From Devosia sp. A16 (GTDB lineage Bacteria; Pseudomonadota; Alphaproteobacteria; Rhizobiales; Devosiaceae): a stretch of 64,000 bases of DNA. Positions 313 through 63,100 of this stretch are shown here, one piece after another. Under the pieces are notes generated by a model that saw only the letters and a program-made list of their open reading frames with translations, searched no databases and had not been told where the DNA came from. Location: NCBI RefSeq assembly GCF_001402915.1, contig NZ_CP012945.1:2891501-2955500 (forward strand). Direction: 5' to 3'. The translations under genes were made by a program, and so were the position numbers. The stretch's first letter is position 1; every line of letters starts with the position of its first letter.

Positions 313-428
313 CCCCTCTCCCTTGGGGGAGAGGGTCGGGGTGAGGGGGCCTTGCCGCGAGCACAGAGTGTGAGGCAAGGCCCCCCACCCGACGCTTCGC
401 GTCGACCTCTCCCCCAAGGGAGAGGTGA
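313..428. repeat. Palindromic repeat, inverted pair (copy A)
   Basis: Two arms face each other. The left arm is CCCTCTCCC-loop-GGGAGAGGG followed by GTGAGGGGGCCTTGCC. The right arm starts GGCAAGGCCCCCC, then the small hairpin CGACGC-TTC-GCGTCG, then ACCTCTCCC-loop-GGGAGAGGT. It fills the gap between the FlhB-tail gene and the aldolase-like gene. It belongs to the same family as the copies near 5.9, 9.4, 15, 17, 38.8 and 60-62 kb. Confidence 0.85.
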
Positions 429-9361: not shown

Positions 9362-9480
9362 GGCCCCCTCCCGGCCTCCCCCATAAAGGGGGAGGTGAAG
9401 AGACGAGGCACTCGCTTCGATCGTGCCAAACGCACCAGCGGGGCACCTCCCCCTTTATGGGGGAGGATGGGAGGGGGCCT
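9362..9480. repeat. Palindromic repeat, inverted pair (copy C, variant)
   Basis: CCTCCCCCATAAAGGGGGAGG and its inverted partner CACCTCCCCCTTTATGGGG face each other between the convergent phoX and transporter genes. It lacks the small hairpin and has a CCCTCCCGGCC variant outer arm. It is related to, but diverged from, the main family. Confidence 0.7.
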
Positions 9481-13456: not shown

Positions 13457-14911
13457 TCAAACCCCCGTCGCCGGAATACCGGTGCGTTCCACCTTGCGCG
13501 GCGCGGTGATCTCTTTCCACGTCGAAAGCGCCCGGTTCACCGGGTTCTTGGCTTCCCGCGCCACGAACTGGCCGTGCCCCTGTTCGGCGTTGACCGTGTC
13601 CTCGGTCACTGCCACCTGGCCACGCGTCAGCGTGAAGCGCGGCAGCCCTTCGACTTCGATGCCCTCGAACACATTGTAGTCGATCGCCGACTGCTGCTTC
13701 GCCGCGGTGATCGTCTTCTTGCGCTTGGGGTCCCACACCACGAGGTCGGCATCGGCGCCGACGAGGATGGCGCCCTTTTTTGGATACATGTTGAGGATCT
13801 TGGCGATGTTGGTCGAGGTCACCGCGACGAACTCGTTCATCGTCAGCCGGCCGGTATTGACGCCTTTCGTCCACAACACCGGCATGCGGTCTTCGAGCCC
13901 GCCGGTGCCGTTCGGGATCTTGGCGAAGTTGCCGACGCCGTTGCGCTTCTGCGCCGTGGTGAAGGCGCAGTGATCGGTCGCCACCACCTGCAGCGACCCC
14001 GAGGCCAGCCCGGCCCACAGCGAATCCTGGTGCTGCTTGTTGCGGAACGGCGGGCTCATCACCCGGCGCGCCGCATAGTCCCAGTCGCGGTTGAAGTATT
14101 CGCTCTCGTCGAGCACCAGGTGCTGGATCAGCGGCTCGCCATAGACGCGCTTGCCGGCCTGCCGCGCCCGGCGGATCGCCTCATGCGCCTGCTCGCAAGA
14201 GGTGTGGACGATGTAGACCGGTACCCCCGCCATGTCGGCGATCATGATCGCCCGGTTGGTCGCCTCGCCTTCCACTTCGGGCGGGCGCGAATAAGCATGC
14301 GCCTCCGGGCCATTGTTGCCGGCGGCAAGCAGCTTAGCCGTCATCTGCGCCACCACGTCGCCGTTCTCGGCATGAACCAGGGGCAGGGCGCCGAGATCGG
14401 CGCAGCGCTGGAACGACGAGAACATCTCGTCGTCATCCACCATCAGCGCGCCCTTGTAGGCCATGAAGTGCTTGAACGAGGTGATGCCGCGATCGACCAC
14501 GTCGGCCATTTCGCTCCACACCTGCTCGCCCCACCAGGTGATCGCCATGTGGAACGAGTAGTCGCAGGAGGCCTTCGAGGTCTTGTTGTCCCACATCTGC
14601 AAGGCTTCGAGCAGCGACTGCTGCGGGTTGGGCAGGCAGAAATCCACCACCATGGTGGTGCCCCCGCTCAGCGCCGCGCGCGTGCCGCTCTCGAAATCGT
14701 CGCTCGAATAGGTGCCCATGAACGGCATTTCGAGATGCGTATGCGGATCGATGCCACCCGGCATGACGTAGCAGCCCGAGGCATCGAGCACCTCGCCCCC
14801 AGTGAGGTTCTGCCCGATCTCGGTGATCCTGCCGCCTTCGATGCGGATATCGGCCGCATAGGTGAGATCGGCGGTGACGATGGTGCCGTTCTTGATGATT
14901 TTGCTGGTCAT
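13457..14911 (-). CDS. hydA: Dihydropyrimidinase (D-hydantoinase)
   Basis: A 484-residue amidohydrolase that opens dihydrouracil or dihydrothymine to the N-carbamoyl beta-amino acid. Metal ligands are visible: GIDPHTHLEMPF near residue 60, the carboxylated lysine in SFKHFMAYKG near 155, LPLVHAENGD, VYIVHTSC and VVATDHCAF with the late Asp. Length is normal for the family. It follows the first DUF559 gene by 13 bases and precedes the transporter, within the locus that also encodes the carbamoylase, aminotransferase and MmsA. An 11-base sequence spanning its ATG is duplicated 17 bases upstream. Confidence 0.95.
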   Translation of the reverse strand: MTSKIIKNGTIVTADLTYAADIRIEGGRITEIGQNLTGGEVLDASGCYVMPGGIDPHTHLEMPFMGTYSSDDFESGTRAALSGGTTMVVDFCLPNPQQSLLEALQMWDNKTSKASCDYSFHMAITWWGEQVWSEMADVVDRGITSFKHFMAYKGALMVDDDEMFSSFQRCADLGALPLVHAENGDVVAQMTAKLLAAGNNGPEAHAYSRPPEVEGEATNRAIMIADMAGVPVYIVHTSCEQAHEAIRRARQAGKRVYGEPLIQHLVLDESEYFNRDWDYAARRVMSPPFRNKQHQDSLWAGLASGSLQVVATDHCAFTTAQKRNGVGNFAKIPNGTGGLEDRMPVLWTKGVNTGRLTMNEFVAVTSTNIAKILNMYPKKGAILVGADADLVVWDPKRKKTITAAKQQSAIDYNVFEGIEVEGLPRFTLTRGQVAVTEDTVNAEQGHGQFVAREAKNPVNRALSTWKEITAPRKVERTGIPATGV

Positions 14912-14924
14912 TCGAGTTTCCCTG

Positions 14925-15353
14925 TCATTCGAGTGTGCCCCGGATCACCTCTCCCTGGGGGGAGAGGTCGGACTTCGCATAGCGAAGTCCGGGTGAGGGG
15001 GCCTTCTCCAGCGTCTCGGCGATCACCTGCAGCACGCCGTCCATGTTGGTCAGTACGTCAGAGTTCCAGAAGCGGATGACCCGATAGCCATGCCGGTGCA
15101 GCACTTCCGTTCGCGCGGCGTCCGCCATGACGCCGGCAGCCGTTCCGTGCTGCCCACCATCGAGTTCCACGATCAGGTCGTGCTCACGGCAGGCGAAGTC
15201 GGCGATGTACGGGCCGACCGGCGCTTGGCGCACGAATTTGCACCCAAGCAACTGCCGGTCTCTCAATTGGAACCAGAGTTTTCGCTCGGCATCGGACGAG
15301 TTCTCTCTAAGGGAGCGGGCACGCGCCACGAACTTGCTCTTGAGCGTCCCCAT
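14925..15353 (-). CDS. DUF559 (Vsr/PD-(D/E)XK fold) nuclease-like protein, copy 1
   Basis: A 142-residue DUF559 protein. It shows the helical N-terminus RARSLRENSSDAERKLW, the core GPYIADFACREHDLIVELDGGQH with likely catalytic Asp and Glu, and YRVIRFWNSDVL. The family resembles very short patch repair endonucleases; no biochemical role is established. The ATG at 15353 abuts repeat pair E, and the last 25 or so residues (PSPGLR to GEV) are translated from repeat copy D. It interrupts the pyrimidine operon between the carbamoylase and dihydropyrimidinase genes, and a second such gene lies 1.4 kb away in the same arrangement. Confidence 0.85.
   Translation of the reverse strand: MGTLKSKFVARARSLRENSSDAERKLWFQLRDRQLLGCKFVRQAPVGPYIADFACREHDLIVELDGGQHGTAAGVMADAARTEVLHRHGYRVIRFWNSDVLTNMDGVLQVIAETLEKAPSPGLRYAKSDLSPQGEVIRGTLE
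14946..15005. repeat. Palindromic repeat copy D (single), inside the DUF559 3' end
   Basis: ACCTCTCCC-loop-GGGAGAGGT is followed by a perfect small hairpin GGACTTCGC-ATA-GCGAAGTCC and the tail GGGTGAGGGGGCCTTCT. The nine-base-pair small stem differs in sequence from all other copies but is fully paired. Confidence 0.88.
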
Positions 15354-15490
15354 AAGGCCCCCTCACCCGGCGCTACGCGCCGACCTCTCCCCCCAGGGAG
15401 AGGTGGCCGTGCGGCACGATCGCGCCCCAACTTCACCTCTCCCTCTGGGGGAAAGGTCGAAGCGCAACGCGCTTCGGGTGAGGGGGCCTT
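15354..15490. repeat. Palindromic repeat, inverted pair (copy E)
   Basis: The left unit is AAGGCCCCCTCACC, small hairpin CGGCGC-TAC-GCGCCG, then ACCTCTCCCCCCAGGGAGAG. The right unit is ACCTCTCCC-loop-GGGAAAGGT, small hairpin GAAGCGC-AAC-GCGCTTC, then GGGTGAGGGGGCCTT. The pair separates the carbamoylase stop (15503) from the start of DUF559 copy 1. Confidence 0.9.
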
Positions 15491-15502
15491 CTGGAAGCAT
15501 CC

Positions 15503-16753
15503 TCACCCCACGATCTCCGCCGTCTCCAGCACCGCACGCAGCAGCACGTCGGTGCCCGCCGCCGCCCACTCTTTCGAGATCTCTTCCGCCTCGTTGTGGC
15601 TGAGCCCGTCGACGCACGGGCACATGATCATTGCCGAGGGCGCCACCCGGTTGATCCAGCAGGCATCGTGCCCGGCGCCCGAGACGATGTCGCGGTAGGA
15701 ATAGCCGAGTTCCTTGGCCGCCTCGCGGATATTGCCCACCAGCGTCTTGTCGAAGGTCACCGGGTCGAAATGCCCGACCTGCTCGACTTCGGCACTGATA
15801 TCGAGCGCCTCGGCGGTGTTGGCGATGCCGTAGCGGATGCGCTCGTCCATCTCGTCGAGCACCTCCTTGTTCGGCGAGCGGATGTCGATGGTGAACACCG
15901 CCTTGCCCGCGATGATGTTGCGCGAGTTCGGCCAGACCTGAATGTGGCCTACCGCGCCAACGGCGTCGGGCTGGTAGTCCATCGCCACCTCGTGCACCAG
16001 CTCGATCACCCGCGCCATGCCGAGGCTGGCATTGCGCCGCTTCGGCATCGGGGTCGAGCCGGTATGGGCTTCCTTGCCGGTCAGCGTCACCTGCAGCCAT
16101 TTCAGCCCCTGGCCGTGCGTGACGACGCCGATATCGACACCCTCGTCCTCGAGGATCGGGCCCTGCTCGATATGCAGCTCGTAGTACGCATGGATCTTCC
16201 GCGCCCCGACCACTTCGTCGCCGCGCCAGCCGATCCGCTCCAGCTCCTCGCCGAAGCTTTTGCCGTCCTTGTCCTTGTGGGTGTAAACGTCCGCCTGGTC
16301 GAGCACTCCGGCGAACACGCCCGAGGCCATCATCGCCGGGGCGAACCGCGCCCCTTCCTCATTGGTCCAGTTGACCACCACGATCGGGCGCCGGGTGCGG
16401 ATGTCGAGGTCGTTGAGCGTGCGGATCACCTCGAGCCCGCCCAGCACCCCGAGCACCCCGTCATAGCGCCCGCCGGTCGGCTGGGTATCGAGATGGCTGC
16501 CGACATAGACCGGATCGAGCCCCGGCTCGGTGCCCTCGCGCCGCGCGAACATGGTGCCCATCTGGTCGAGCCCCATCTCCATCCCGGCCGCCTCGCACCA
16601 GCGCTTGAACAGCGCCCGGCCCTTGGCATCGTCATCGGTCACCGTCTGCCGATTGCTGCCCCCGGCAACGCCGGGGCCGATCTCGGCCAGCTCATGAATG
16701 GAGCTCCACAGGCGGTCGGGATCGATACGAAGATTTTCGCCGGGAGCTGCCAT
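15503..16753 (-). CDS. Beta-ureidopropionase / N-carbamoyl amino acid hydrolase (M20 family)
   Basis: A 416-residue Zn-dependent amidase of the hydantoinase/carbamoylase family. It hydrolyses N-carbamoyl-beta-alanine to beta-alanine, CO2 and ammonia, the step after dihydropyrimidinase. Metal-binding segments are GSHLDTQPTGGRYDG (near 87), VNWTNEEGARF, ELHIEQGP and the late SGAGHDAC and GLSHNEAE. An N-carbamoyl-L-amino acid specificity is possible from sequence alone, but the gene set favours the pyrimidine pathway. The start is two bases after the stop of DUF559 copy 2, whose last two dozen codons seem to be this gene's former leader. Confidence 0.92.
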   Translation of the reverse strand: MAAPGENLRIDPDRLWSSIHELAEIGPGVAGGSNRQTVTDDDAKGRALFKRWCEAAGMEMGLDQMGTMFARREGTEPGLDPVYVGSHLDTQPTGGRYDGVLGVLGGLEVIRTLNDLDIRTRRPIVVVNWTNEEGARFAPAMMASGVFAGVLDQADVYTHKDKDGKSFGEELERIGWRGDEVVGARKIHAYYELHIEQGPILEDEGVDIGVVTHGQGLKWLQVTLTGKEAHTGSTPMPKRRNASLGMARVIELVHEVAMDYQPDAVGAVGHIQVWPNSRNIIAGKAVFTIDIRSPNKEVLDEMDERIRYGIANTAEALDISAEVEQVGHFDPVTFDKTLVGNIREAAKELGYSYRDIVSGAGHDACWINRVAPSAMIMCPCVDGLSHNEAEEISKEWAAAGTDVLLRAVLETAEIVG

Positions 16754-16755
16754 GG

Positions 16756-17223
16756 TCAGTCTTTCAAGAGTCGAGGGATATCTGCGGTGAGCCGGTAGCT
16801 CCGCTGTTTCGTCGTCGCGGCCATGCTCCCTCTTTCCCCTCTCCCCTCAGGGGAGAGGGTGGCGGGCGCGAAGCGCTCGCCGGGTGAGGGGTGCCCCGCT
16901 ATCGCCGCGAGCAGGCTATCAGCAACGCCATGGGGGTTGCCCAGCACGTCACTGTTCCAAAAGCGCAGGACCGAGTAGCCCTGAGCCGTCAGGTAGTCGG
17001 TACGGGCCTGATCGGTTGAGGAGTCGACGTGCTGGCTGCCATCCAGTTCGACGATCAATGCCGCTTCGCGGCAGACGAAGTCTGCGAAATATGGGCCGAT
17101 CGCCACCTGCCGGGCGAACTTCCAACCACCGATTTGCCGGCCGCGCACCATCTGCCAGAACTTGTGCTCGGCGTCCGTTTCGTTGCGGCGCAACGAGCGT
17201 GCCCTAGAGACTGAACCCCTCAC
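16756..17223 (-). CDS. DUF559 (Vsr/PD-(D/E)XK fold) nuclease-like protein, copy 2
   Basis: A protein of about 155 residues clearly homologous to DUF559 copy 1: RARSLRRNETDAEHKFW, GPYFADFVCREAALIVELDGSQH and VLRFWNSDVL. The N-terminal eight or so residues of copy 1 (MGTLKSKF) have no counterpart; the frame instead runs back into repeat pair G. A GTG at 17223, inside the repeat, is the suggested start, but the frame stays open to 17409. The C-terminus reads through repeat F (PSPGERFAPATLSPEGRGE) and then 24 codons up to the carbamoylase gene. Expression is unproven. Confidence 0.7.
   Translation of the reverse strand: MRGSVSRARSLRRNETDAEHKFWQMVRGRQIGGWKFARQVAIGPYFADFVCREAALIVELDGSQHVDSSTDQARTDYLTAQGYSVLRFWNSDVLGNPHGVADSLLAAIAGHPSPGERFAPATLSPEGRGERGSMAATTKQRSYRLTADIPRLLKD
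16836..16892. repeat. Palindromic repeat copy F (single), inside the DUF559 3' end
   Basis: CCCTCTCCCCTCAGGGGAGA, then the small hairpin GGCGGGCGC-GAA-GCGCTCGCC, then GGGTGAGGGG. The nine-base small stem contains one G-T position, which would be a G-U pair in RNA. It occupies the same position relative to DUF559 copy 2 as copy D does to DUF559 copy 1. Confidence 0.88.
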
Positions 17224-17380
17224 CCGACGCTGCGCGTCGACCTCTCCCCTCAGGGGAGAGGTGACCTCGGCATCGGTGCGGGGGGGCGCACTTTGCACCG
17301 CCGGTGCCTCATCGCCCCCTCCCGGCGATGGCTCGGCCCTCGTCCGGCACCCCTCAGGGGAGAGGGCTGGGGTGAGGGGC
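17216..17380. repeat. Palindromic repeat, inverted pair (copy G)
   Basis: The left unit is CCCCTCACC, small hairpin CGACGC-TGC-GCGTCG, ACCTCTCCCCTCAGGGGAG. About 85 bases later the right unit is CCCCTCAGGGGAGAGGGCTG then GGGTGAGGGG, a subtype without the small hairpin. It separates mmsA from DUF559 copy 2. Confidence 0.87.
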
Positions 17381-17412
17381 AGTCCAGCAATGCCGGTGCT
17401 TGTCTGCATCCG

Positions 17413-18909
<1,497 letters not shown>

Positions 18910-38775: not shown

Positions 38776-38911
38776 AAGGCCCTCTCACCCGGCGCTGCGC
38801 GCCGACCTCTCCCCCAAAGGGAGAGGTGACCCGAGGCAAGATCGTGCCACAACAACACCTCTCCCTGGGGGGAGAGGTCGGATTGCGCAGCAATCCGGGT
38901 GAGGGGGCCTT
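38776..38911. repeat. Palindromic repeat, inverted pair (copy H)
   Basis: The left unit has small hairpin CGGCGC-TGC-GCGCCG and ACCTCTCCCCCAAAGGGAGA. The right unit has ACCTCTCCCTGGGGGGAGAG, small hairpin GGATTGC-GCA-GCAATCC and GGGTGAGGGGGCCTTTGC, directly followed by the SDR ATG at 38915. The repeat therefore forms the leader of that gene. Confidence 0.9.
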
Positions 38912-60168: not shown

Positions 60169-63100
60169 ATGCACCTTCTCGCCGCGCAGGCCGGAGCGCT
60201 GCAGCAGGAGGGCGAGGCCATCGACCTCGCCCAGACGCCCGGCGACATCGTCTTCGCGTCGGCCGCCGACAGCGAGCTGATGATGCTGGCCGCCGCGGCC
60301 GATCGGGCCGGAACGATCCAGGCGCGCGACAGCGGCCGAAACGCAACAGACCTGCGCCTCGCCAACCTCCTGCGGCTCAGCCACAACCTCTCGGTCGACC
60401 TCTGGCTCGACCAGACGGTGCAGCATGCGCAACTGGTAGTGGTCCGGCTGCTCGGCGGCCCGGCCTACTGGCAGTACGGCGTTGACGAACTGACGGCGCT
60501 GGCGTTGAGCGGCAGGATCCGGCTGGCGCTGCTTCCCGGCGATGCCAACCCGGACCCGATCCTCCAGCAACGCTCGACGATTCACCCCGAGGATTGGACC
60601 AGGCTGCACAGGCTGTTCACCGCCGGCGGCCCGGAAAACGCCGATGCGCTGCTGGCGGCCTTCACACAGATGGCGCAGTCGTCACCCTCCCCCTCGCGGG
60701 GAGGGTTCAAGGGTGGGGGGAGCCCCGCGCTCGAGCCCCGCATGTCAACGCCTAAACCCTTCCATCGTTTCGGCCTCTGGCACCCCGCGCAGGGCATGCT
60801 GGACGCACTCCCTGCCTCGCCCCATCCGCACGTGCCGATCCTGTTCTACCGGGCCGCGCTCGAGGGCGCCGGCACTGCCACACTCGAAGCCCTGATCGCC
60901 GAGCTCGAGGCCCAGTCCCTCAACCCCGTCCCGATCGTCGTATCGACGCTGAAGGAAGGCGCCTGCATCCGTTTCGTGCAGTCGGCCTTCGCCCAATACC
61001 CGCCCAGCGTCATCCTCAACCTCACCGGTTTCGCTCTCGGGCTCGACGGGCTCGACGACAAGCAGAACCCGTTTGTCGGCACCGATGCGCCGGTGATCCA
61101 GCTGCTGCAGGGCGGACGTCCCGAGGCGCAATGGGCCGCCGATGTCCAGGGGCTGACGGCAAAAGACCTCGCCATGCAGGTGGTGCTCCCCGAGCTCGAT
61201 GGACGCATCGGCATGCTGCTGGTCGGCCACAAGCACGACGCCGTCTGGCACGAACGCACCCAGTGCCCCCTCTCCGCCTACGCTCCCGACCACGACGGTA
61301 TCCGCCGCGCGGTCACCCTGGCGAAGAACTGGACCGTCCTGCGCTTGACCGTGCGCGCCGAGCGCCGCGTCGCACTGGTTCTCGCCAACTATCCGATCCG
61401 TGACGGACGGCTGGCGAACGGGGTCGGCTATGATGCGCCGCAGTCGACGGTGGAGATTCTCAGGGCCATGGAGGGGGCGGGGTATCGCTTCGGCCCCTCA
61501 CCCGGCGCTGCGCGCCACCCTCTCCCTCAAGGGGAGAGGGACGATGTGGCCCGATCTAGCCCCGGCCTTCCCTCTCCCCTTGAGGGAGAGGGTGCCTCGC
61601 GTAGCGAGGCGGGTGAGGGGCAGTTTCCCCGCACCGGCAACGACCTGATTGCCCTGCTCCAATCCGGCCCCACCAACGCCCATCCCGAGCGCGGCGAGGG
61701 CATCCCGTTTCCCGTCAAGCGCTACCGCGAGCTCTTCGCCGCGCTCCCGGGCAGCATCCAGGCCGAGGTCACTGCCCGCTGGGGCGACCCCGCTGCCGAC
61801 CCATTCGTGCGCGGAGATCACTTCCATCTTCCGGCCGTCCGCTTCGGCAATGCCGCCATCCTCGTCCAGCCGGCGCGCGGCTATCATCTCGACGAAACCG
61901 CCAGCTATCACGATCCGGATCTGGTGCCGCCGCACGGCTATCTCGCCGCCTATCTGTGGCTGCGGCACGACTTCGCTGCCCATGCGCTGATCCACAACGG
62001 CAAGCACGGCAATCTCGAATGGCTGCCGGGCAAGGCCACGGCGCTGGATGCCGCGTCCTATCCGGCGGCGCTCTGGGCCGAGCTGCCGCAGCTCTATCCG
62101 TTCATCGTCAACGACCCGGGCGAGGGCACGCAGGCCAAGCGCCGCACCGGCGCGGTGATCATCGACCACCTGGTGCCGCCGCTGACCCGGGCCGAAACCT
62201 ACGGCGCGCTGAAGGACCTCGAGGCGCTGCTCGACGAATATTATGCCGCTTCCGGCATGGATCGCCGCCGCCTGGCGGGCCTGCGCAGACGCATTCTCGA
62301 TTTCACCCGCGATATCAGGCTCGACCGCGACATCGGCCTCGTCGCCGACGAGTTTGAAACGCTCCGGCGCATCGACACCTTCCTCTGCGATCTCAAGGAA
62401 GCCCAGATTCGCGACGGCTTGCATGTGTTCGGCCAATCCCCCTCCGGCCGGCTGGAACGCGACCTGATCGTCGCGCTTGCCCGCGTGCCGCGCGGCGAGG
62501 GAGCCGGGGACGCGTCGCTGATCCGCGCCTTGGCCGACGATCTGAAACTGGGGTTCGATCCGCTGACGGCGGACCTCGGCGCGCCGTGGACCGGGCCTCT
62601 GCTTCCCTCCCTTCAAGGGGGAGGGGGGCTCGTCCGCACCGTCGGCGACGTGGTCGAGCATCTCGAGGGCCTCGCGGCAGAGCTTGTCGACGGCCGTCCA
62701 CCCGATCCCGATTGGCACGCCACTGCCGCCGTTCTCTCGACGATCGAGACCACTATCCGCCCCCGCCTCGCTGCATCCGGCCCCAACGAGATTGCATCGC
62801 TGCTCGTCGGCCTCGACGGCAAGTTCGTGCTACCCGGTCCGTCCGGCGCGCCGTCGCGCGGCCGGCTCGATGTGCTCCCGACCGGGCGCAACTTCTATTC
62901 GGTCGACATCCGCGCCGTGCCCACCCCGACGGCCTGGGAGCTTGGCCGGAAATCCGCCGAGAACCTGCTGGTCCGGCATTTTCAGGATCACGGCGCGCCG
63001 CTGCGCTCCCTGGCGCTCTCGGTCTGGGGTACCGCCAATATGCGCACCGGTGGCGACGACATCGCCCAGGCCCTCGCCTTCATCGGCGCCAGGCCGACCT

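Follow-up and report, generated by a model that had tools for sequence, protein, structure and literature searches.

Why do two small nuclease genes, each flanked by palindromic repeats, lie within one operon of Devosia sp. A16? The window analysed here is a stretch of 64,000 nucleotides. The original prediction placed two DUF559 genes among its catabolic genes, 13 and 2 bases ahead of the next host gene, and suggested that gene and repeats may form a mobile unit. Both genes are present on the minus strand at those distances, and both match PF04480 (E 2.1e-37 and 8e-36; 127.8 and 122.7 bits, against a curated cut-off of 20.6). Their neighbours are a dihydropyrimidinase, an allantoate-amidohydrolase/carbamoylase-family gene and a CoA-acylating MMSDH. 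The two units and the gene-less repeat pairs of the window are as follows.

14925..15353, minus strand: DUF559 gene of unit 1, 142 amino acids; its 3' end reads through the downstream repeat.
14946..15005, minus strand: end repeat of unit 1, 3' side of the gene; hairpin, small variable hairpin and G-rich tail facing the gene.
15354..15405, minus strand: end repeat of unit 1, 5' side; inverted copy of 14946-15005, inverted-repeat score 77.
15433..15490, plus strand: additional copy upstream; together with 15354-15405 it makes a tails-out pair.
16756..17409, minus strand: DUF559 open reading frame of unit 2, 217 amino acids; the domain is residues 68-170 and the N-terminal part is translated repeat.
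16835..16892, minus strand: end repeat of unit 2, 3' side.
17216..17264, minus strand: end repeat of unit 2, 5' side; inverted-repeat score 49.
17348..17380, plus strand: degenerate extra upstream copy at unit 2.
315..425, unstranded: tails-in pair without a gene, its repeats of the class found at the unit ends.
9375..9466, unstranded: gene-less pair, close to the end repeats of a unit elsewhere in the genome (L008).
38781..38906, unstranded: gene-less tails-out pair.
61494..61620, unstranded: gene-less tails-out pair.

In both units the 3' repeat is in the same reading frame as the gene, as had been predicted. Since about the first 60 residues of the unit 2 reading frame are repeat sequence in translation, its true start is probably further inside. 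The predicted repeat positions stand, but their grouping into a 5' pair and a single 3' repeat has to be revised. The essential pair of each unit consists of the 3' repeat and the nearer 5' repeat, which are mutually inverted with their tails facing the gene; the outer 5' repeat is additional to this pair. The pyrimidine operon is an incidental setting, because nine of the 11 units of this genome lie elsewhere and both operon junctions carry other, unrelated inserts in relatives. A role tied to pyrimidine catabolism is therefore rejected.

Could such a layout arise by chance in a repeat-rich genome? Repeats were sampled over 464 kb, comprising the window and 20 evenly spaced 20-kb stretches. 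Exact copies of the core palindrome CCTCTCCC-N0-8-GGGAGAGG number 158 genome-wide, with none when read backwards. The sample contains 51 triplex-type repeats, and its reversed control contains none. Because these reversed controls are empty, the layout of the units is not due to chance.

The common core, together with ten tails-out pairs in the sample with gaps below 60 bases, establishes dispersed, high-copy palindromes in dimers. This is a REP-like property, and the original prediction had drawn the comparison with REP-RAYT systems. As in the REPtrons and TIRtrons of the available text of PMC3733652, a gene lies between palindromes or terminal inverted repeats that are also found alone; small palindromes in dimers are likewise common to both. 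Unlike REP-RAYT systems as described there, the units have no Y1 tyrosine transposase. The predicted lack of a RAYT in the window extends to the genome, where PF01797 has 0 matches; the same profile is positive in 5 of 14 control genomes. A Vsr-fold nuclease occupies the RAYT's place, as foreseen, and no GTAG tag is found at the ends of the repeats read by eye. With no Y1_Tnp gene in the genome, membership in the REP-RAYT systems is not supported and was rejected. A REP-RAYT system or a chance arrangement is hardly tenable, contradicted as it is by this absence, by the reversed and sham controls and by finding the same bracket in distant lineages.

The repeats belong instead to another known class. 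Each end repeat consists of a pyrimidine arm, a loop, a purine arm, a linker and a purine tail, and arm and tail covary in mirror-image fashion. A perfect mirror-image tail is found for 87 of 198 asymmetric arms, against a perfect direct copy for 17 of 198 and a mean of 17.2 with swapped tails. Compared with this mirror model, the fit is poorer if the tail is taken to repeat the purine arm directly and to pair with the pyrimidine arm. Judged by sequence, the end repeats are of the BoxC/PIT/TM intrastrand-triplex class, in class II order (pyrimidine arm, purine arm, third strand), and could fold into triplexes. An Rfam RNA family was dismissed as their identity, with zero matches at gathering score in window positions 14000-18500.

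According to the available text of PMC4666352, knowledge of BoxC/PIT/TM repeats dates from the 1990s. They are GC-rich, intergenic and dispersed, some form inverted pairs, and their loops are less conserved than their stems; the repeats described here share these features. Many families here differ in having a small hairpin instead of a short second loop. A second difference is that the repeats here bracket a matched nuclease gene; in the text available (PMC4666352), no mobility gene was found by Holder et al. (2015) beside theirs. The same source reports that the E. coli triplex motif was observed in vitro by CD/NMR, and that DMS probing in vivo was negative for triplex.

How general is this bracket? 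In the genome of the window, an inverted palindrome pair brackets 10 of 11 DUF559 genes, the exception being L003. A strong bracket is also found at 124 of 181 loci in a non-random draw, mostly the best match per genome, with orthologous units of related genomes counted separately. One batch of these loci consisted of the 80 matches listed out of 578 confirmed, and 40 further places were chosen from genomes with several DUF559 copies. Loci cut by contig ends were left out (L013, L036, L040, L094, L127, L147, L331, L335, L346 and L350), as were L219 and L239, repeats of L066 and L014. Sham intervals score as bracketed in only 4/880 and 6/2341 cases, and Vsr genes in the same test in 0/29; one Vsr locus was left out at flank 250, and L273, L277 and L285 from the Vsr motif count. 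The enrichment of repeats at DUF559 genes of relatives, on which the prediction could be checked, is thus strong, and the sham and reversed controls rule out a chance arrangement.

The terminal inverted repeats are specific to each unit. The best match of a unit's left end is its own right end in 35 of 40 units from eight genomes. Triplex-type repeats are present on 251 sides, and on 219 of these the repeat closest to the gene points its tail toward it. Repeat family also tracks nuclease sequence within a genome, with a Mantel r of 0.82 (p 0.0005) in the genome of the window and 0.66 (p 0.0065) in another; the test is without significance in G060 (5 units) and G051 (4 units). Across genomes, the TM pattern occurs in 25 of 47 with a strong DUF559 match, versus 11 of 153 others. 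The two co-occur imperfectly: a strong DUF559 match is missing from 11 of 36 TM-positive genomes, and the TM pattern from 22 of the 47 DUF559 genomes.

The palindromes might be spread by another, unseen activity, with DUF559 merely carried between them. TM repeats in genomes without a strong DUF559 match fit this idea, as do the other inserts at the same operon junctions. It is nevertheless very improbable. The 464-kb sample contains five cases in which neighbouring repeats form a tails-in pair 250-900 bases apart, and DUF559 lies inside four of them; the fifth joins two different repeat families. Vsr genes without the bracket, the joint variation of repeat and protein, and the lack of Y1_Tnp in the genome also speak against a passenger.

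What kind of enzyme does the gene encode? The predicted structure (pLDDT 91.2) has fold matches to 3HRL, 3R3P and 1VSR. In Foldseek, the homing endonuclease I-Bth0305I, the second best match, scores E 7.7e-5 and Vsr E 9.3e-3. Residues E15, D44, E55, H61 and D70 are invariant, and the gene is under purifying selection (dN/dS 0.05-0.17), which counts in favour of the selfish unit set out below. On this model, DUF559 is a small nuclease of Vsr fold and PD-(D/E)XK type with conserved candidate active-site residues. It shares its fold with Vsr and I-Bth0305I, and differs from Vsr in that its genes are bracketed. No intron or host-gene target is seen at DUF559 units.

A Vsr-like enzyme could also serve the host. 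DUF559 might be a domesticated enzyme that cuts or resolves hairpins or triplexes of dispersed repeats, or acts in Vsr-like repair, with the repeats beside the gene being a regulatory or self-sensing feature rather than element ends. The purifying selection on the gene fits this view too, and the characterised DUF559 protein VsrA of Caulobacter has been proposed, in the account available, as a mismatch-repair nuclease. TM loci are linked with genome instability in the available text of PMC4666352. Moreover, ycjD of E. coli K-12, which matches PF04480 at E 1.4e-49, is a fixed single gene in many E. coli strains. At its locus three strains inspected have an efflux cluster instead, and a control genome named Escherichia coli has no PF04480 match, although K-12 ycjD does. 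Domestication is still an unlikely explanation, if the most serious of the rivals: the ends of a unit are a specific match for one another, units within a genome have different ends, there are up to 11 copies per genome, and whole units occur as paralogues and are missing from orthologous sites.

Units L004, L005 and L007 are whole-unit paralogues that share both ends and gene and have sharp borders. Orthologous sites without the unit are found for L004 and L007 in G043 and for L009 in G266. In eight site comparisons the relatives are too diverged for a target duplication to be legible. The 45 plasmid records matching the window protein all have less than 60% identity.

Some empty orthologous sites retain one palindrome. 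A lone palindrome is present at the L009 site in G026 and at the L005 site in G060, where the genome of the window has two around a gene. These suggest homing, in which a lone palindrome is the nuclease's cutting site and break repair copies the unit into it, each end being a full copy of the target. The fold match to I-Bth0305I points the same way. Loss through recombination between the ends could just as well have left lone palindromes behind, and homing alone does not explain the mirror tail. As a separate account homing is rather improbable, and it is best regarded as a variant of the preferred explanation, which leaves the copying route open.

That explanation is that a DUF559 gene and two inverted palindromes make up one unit of a selfish, REP-like family moved by the nuclease, and it is probably correct. 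The ends would be class II intrastrand-triplex motifs, and the only enzyme a small Vsr-fold nuclease. An end that is extruded or becomes single-stranded, as may happen at a replication fork, would form a hairpin in the cell, possibly a triplex that the mirror tail closes. Its cognate protein would recognise the folded end and nick beside the fold. Next, the unit, or in trans a palindrome pair without a gene, would be copied or joined into another intergenic site, with a possible preference for related palindromes, through single-strand transposition or homing-like break repair.

Several observations count against the selfish unit: the 57 of 181 loci without a strong bracket, L003 among them; the DUF559 gene without a 5' repeat at the hyuC/hydA junction of relatives G026 and G263; the TM-like repeats of ycjD, which lie on its 3' side only; the imperfect co-occurrence with TM; and the two Mantel tests without significance, the negative DMS result and the repair proposal for VsrA.

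A comparable pairing may exist in a second repeat class. PF01541 GIY-YIG genes were picked as a negative control for the bracket test, and they turned out to be bracketed too, with CGTC-type repeats on both sides in 17 of 56 cases and TM repeats on both sides in 0/56. CGTC-tagged REPs are said to be without a dedicated transposase in the available text of PMC3733652, much as BoxC/PIT/TM palindromes are without a known mobility gene. They differ from the ends of DUF559 units in being another repeat class, which brackets GIY-YIG genes instead. The wider proposal is that DUF559 mobilises BoxC/PIT/TM repeats via folded ends, that single-domain GIY-YIG proteins do likewise for CGTC-tagged REPs, and that RAYT is one of several such enzymes. 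It is tentative, and its chances fall somewhat short of even.

Because its genes are bracketed by matching inverted palindromes, DUF559 is a candidate for the missing enzyme that spreads BoxC/PIT/TM repeats, and a concrete one that can be simply assayed. E. coli K-12, with 23 TM copies (available text of PMC4666352) and ycjD with its TM-like 3' repeats, has both partners in one strain. Action on hairpin or triplex ends would make such a nuclease chemically unusual among mobile elements, and it could then serve to probe non-B DNA in cells. Should the GIY-YIG/CGTC pairing also prove true, the idea reaches a second repeat class, and two large classes without a known mobility gene in the available texts of PMC4666352 and PMC3733652 would be accounted for.

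The two DUF559 (PF04480) genes of the window lie between genes for a dihydropyrimidinase, an allantoate-amidohydrolase/carbamoylase-family protein and a CoA-acylating MMSDH. Each belongs to a unit made up of the gene and two inverted palindromes, whose hairpins are accompanied by a purine stretch, the tail.

Features of the two DUF559 units in the window
14925-15353, minus strand: DUF559 gene of unit 1 (open reading frame and domain match)
14946-15005 with 15354-15405: core inverted pair of unit 1, tails facing the gene
15433-15490: additional upstream repeat copy of unit 1
16756-17409, minus strand: DUF559 gene of unit 2 (open reading frame and domain match)
16835-16892 with 17216-17264: core inverted pair of unit 2, tails facing the gene
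17348-17380: additional upstream repeat copy of unit 2, degenerate

The repeats that the original prediction had placed around both genes were found at the sequence level, and both reading frames do enter their own 3' repeat, as it had claimed, and run through it.

The window genome (one contig, 5.03 Mb) contains 11 DUF559 domains, all 11 free of stops. When the 220 bases upstream of each gene are aligned to the reverse complement of the 220 bases downstream, a strong inverted repeat is found at ten of the 11 (scores 49-108). The exception, locus L003, has a pair upstream only (score 22). The end repeats fall into several families. Units L004, L005 and L007 have one family in common, with identities of 76-83% between the domains and about 80-84% at the DNA level; the DNA alignments stop at the repeats, with unrelated flanks beyond. 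Genome-wide, the window family's core palindrome has 158 copies, versus none when it is read backwards.

The same arrangement can be found in other genomes. Using 250-base flanks, a score threshold of 40 and uncut loci only, 29 of 55 DUF559 loci in family and phylum genomes are bracketed, that is, flanked by an inverted repeat pair, versus 4/880 sham intervals in the same loci. Among the matches listed for named genomes the figures are 54/77 versus 6/2341, and 33 of 40 additional, chosen loci are bracketed, two of these being repeats of earlier loci. In total, 124 of 181 DUF559 units are bracketed (184 distinct units less three with short flanks, orthologues being counted separately and the sample partly chosen), versus 0/29 Vsr-family (PF03852) genes. 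By record title, bracketed loci come from Gastranaerophilales, Dehalococcoidia, Planctomycetota, Rokuibacteriota, FCPU426, Rickettsiales, Desulfuromonadales and many Proteobacteria; those without a bracket include loci of Spirochaetes, Dadabacteria, Doudnabacteria, Omnitrophota, N. gonorrhoeae, Legionella and Enterobacter. Locus L047 (G257:C31) has an unusually long inverted repeat at its DUF559 gene, with 124 of 137 aligned columns identical and nested palindromes inside.

From the outside toward the gene, each end consists of a pyrimidine arm, a loop, a purine arm, a linker and the purine tail. The relation between arm and tail was examined in 253 gene-facing hairpins from the flanks of 146 DUF559 units. 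Purine arms of at least 8 bases that are not mirror-symmetric can separate a mirror from a direct copy, and 198 were usable. With a linker of 1-5 bases, and allowing G to match G and A or T to match A, a perfect mirror tail is present at 87 of the 198, versus a perfect direct copy at 17. When tails are exchanged between hairpins, mirror matches average 17.2, with a maximum of 27 (200 trials); when the exchange is confined to the 87 mirror cases, they average 14.5 and reach at most 24 (500 trials). The linker is 3 bases long in 71 of the 87; in genomes of the window genus its place is often taken by a small variable hairpin.

Examples of mirror tails
arm GGGAGAGGGG, tail GGGGAGAGGG
arm GGGGAGGGA, tail AGGGTGGGG
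arm GGGAGAAGG, tail GGATGAGGG
arm AGGAGGGGG, tail GGGGGAGGT

The two ends of a unit may change jointly, as at DUF559 locus L119, where one end has GGGGGAAGG/GGATGGGGG and the opposite end AGGGGGAGGG/GGGTGGGGGT. At locus L041 (G071:C32), the DUF559 gene adjoins several hairpins of the AAAGAGGGG type with mirror tails, which are repeated in the flank; sham scores are high there too.

Judged by its sequence, the DUF559 end repeat is the predicted class II purine-motif intrastrand triplex motif of the BoxC repeats, also called PIT or TM (PMC4666352). The available text of that paper describes 23 TM copies in E. coli K-12, including five inverted pairs, a triplex that forms in vitro with the DMS signal absent in cells, a link to genome instability, and no mobility genes near TM.

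A triplex-type repeat lies within 250 bases of the gene on 251 of 362 sides of DUF559 loci, and the tail of the closest such repeat points to the gene in 219 of the 251 and away from it in 32. The TM pattern, which misses many repeat families, occurs in 25 of the 47 genomes (among 200) with a strong DUF559 match (E <=1e-10), versus 11 of the 153 others (Fisher p 4.6e-11, uncorrected for phylogeny; counted by hand); reversing the pattern yielded a single match. The 51 triplex-type repeats found by scanning 464 kb of the window genome, versus 0 in a reversed control, include ten tails-out pairs with gaps below 60 bases. Four of the five adjacent tails-in pairs with gaps of 250-900 bases contain DUF559. 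In the remaining pair (window 60685-61540) the two repeats are of different families, and the genome-wide domain search gave no DUF559 match in the 776-base gap between them. Open reading frames overlap this gap.

The two ends of a unit are each other's best match in 35 of 40 units, compared with the ends of other tested units in the same genome (eight genomes). Protein identity correlates with end similarity in the window genome (Mantel r 0.82, p 0.0005, 10 units) and in genome G084 (r 0.66, p 0.0065, 7 units); it does not reach significance in either G060 (r 0.34, p 0.17, 5 units) or G051 (r 0.27, p 0.42, 4 units). Across 34 aligned DUF559 domains, E15, W19, F32, R34, Q35, D44, F45, E55, G58, H61, D70, R73, G81 and R86 are invariant. 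The structure model (pLDDT 91.2) best matches 3HRL, followed by the homing endonuclease I-Bth0305I, with Vsr at rank 7; the available text of PMC1189080 assigns the E. coli relative YcjD to the PD-(D/E)XK superfamily. The dN/dS ratio is 0.05-0.17 in eight pairs, with dS saturated in several.

Of the 19 genus genomes searched, 17 entered the comparison of the mmsA-hyuC-hydA region (G-handles below). DUF559 was read by eye in G261, G266 and G263; the other calls agree with domain searches.

Contents of the two junctions in the genus
mmsA/hyuC, 28-37 bases: G262, G020, G057, G263, G054
mmsA/hyuC, 83 bases with one repeat-like hairpin: G260, G038
mmsA/hyuC, 194 bases: G032
mmsA/hyuC, window-type unit: G000, G043
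mmsA/hyuC, other DUF559 type with the left repeat in common: G051, G261, G026, G266
mmsA/hyuC, further DUF559 units: G011, G047
mmsA/hyuC, another insert: G060
hyuC/hydA, 42 and 51 bases: G057, G032
hyuC/hydA, 80-94 bases: G060, G266, G020
hyuC/hydA, bracketed DUF559 unit: G000, G051, G011
hyuC/hydA, DUF559 gene without 5' repeat: G026, G263
hyuC/hydA, other inserts of 338-701 bases: G043, G261, G262, G038, G054, G047

Across the genus, both operon junctions (window 14911-15503 and 16753-17413; loci L070-L086 in the relatives) are hot spots of insertion, their gaps being taken by differing DUF559 unit types and by other inserts.

For the other units of the window genome, the joined flanks were searched in six congeners, and eight site pairs were inspected. 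L004 and L007 are absent from G043, with 12 and 37 bases between the flanks, and L009 is absent from G266, with 18. A single palindrome occupies the L009 site in G026 and the L005 site in G060; in the window genome each of these sites carries two, flanking a DUF559 gene. In G051 the L009 site contains one palindrome of this kind, together with other sequence (L172, L171 and L174 are the lone-palindrome sites in G026, G060 and G051). The L006 site of G051 shows a single repeat and a tail-like stretch next to it, and G261 has an unrelated tails-out pair at its L005 site. No target duplication was readable in the eight pairs, the relatives being too diverged. The lone palindromes at the L009 and L005 sites may be targets or scars.

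The most economical reading is that the unit is moved by its DUF559 nuclease, a movement that we infer. Both homing into palindromes and single-strand transposition, as in RAYT systems, would fit. No Y1_Tnp (RAYT-type) gene was found in the window genome by a search that was positive in 5 of 14 control genomes.

A DUF559 gene is also present in E. coli K-12, as ycjD. It looks like a relic or a domesticated copy rather than a clean two-ended unit, because its repeats, one TM-like and one degenerate, lie on the 3' side only and because an efflux cluster is found in three inspected strains without ycjD. Of 5426 E. coli genomes, 3333 contain at least 80% of the fabI-ycjD-sapF query, and the three strains, which are without it, carry a TetR-RND efflux cluster after fabI in place of ycjD. 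This cluster is named eefRABCD in the available text of PMC12817139 and read there as lost where ycjD is present. Across loci L168 and L259-L261, the fabI-sapF interval holds either ycjD with TM-like repeats or the efflux cluster.

GIY-YIG (PF01541) was picked as a negative control for the bracket test. Among family loci, 18/30 are bracketed versus 11/456 shams, and among phylum loci 5/26 versus 0/416. The repeats are other than those of DUF559, mostly GTC-stem-loop-stem-CCA, a form that agrees with how the available text of PMC3733652 describes CGTC REPs, which according to that paper apparently lack a dedicated transposase. Within 250-base flanks, DUF559 has TM on both sides at 98/181 loci and CGTC-type repeats on any side at 0/181; GIY-YIG has CGTC-type repeats on both sides at 17/56 and TM on both sides at 0/56 (on one side at 2); Vsr has neither (0/27 each). 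The GIY-YIG genes bracketed by CGTC-type palindromes encode single-domain nucleases (for example L310, L316, L319, L333, L334 and L338, within loci L292-L351). At L307 and L314 the GIY-YIG inverted repeat is of another type, CCTTCGAGGCTCGCTGCGCTCGCACCTCAGGxTGAGGG, and that of L298 is related to it.

In the open-access PMC literature, as far as its available text extends, no paper was found that connects palindromic or triplex repeats with DUF559, or CGTC REPs with GIY-YIG. Given the bracket and how specific it is, and given that arm and tail covary, DUF559 and its end repeat very likely form a functional nuclease-palindrome pair. On these motif counts, GIY-YIG and CGTC-type palindromes form a putative second such pairing, for a class of repeats said to be transposase-less in the available text of PMC3733652.
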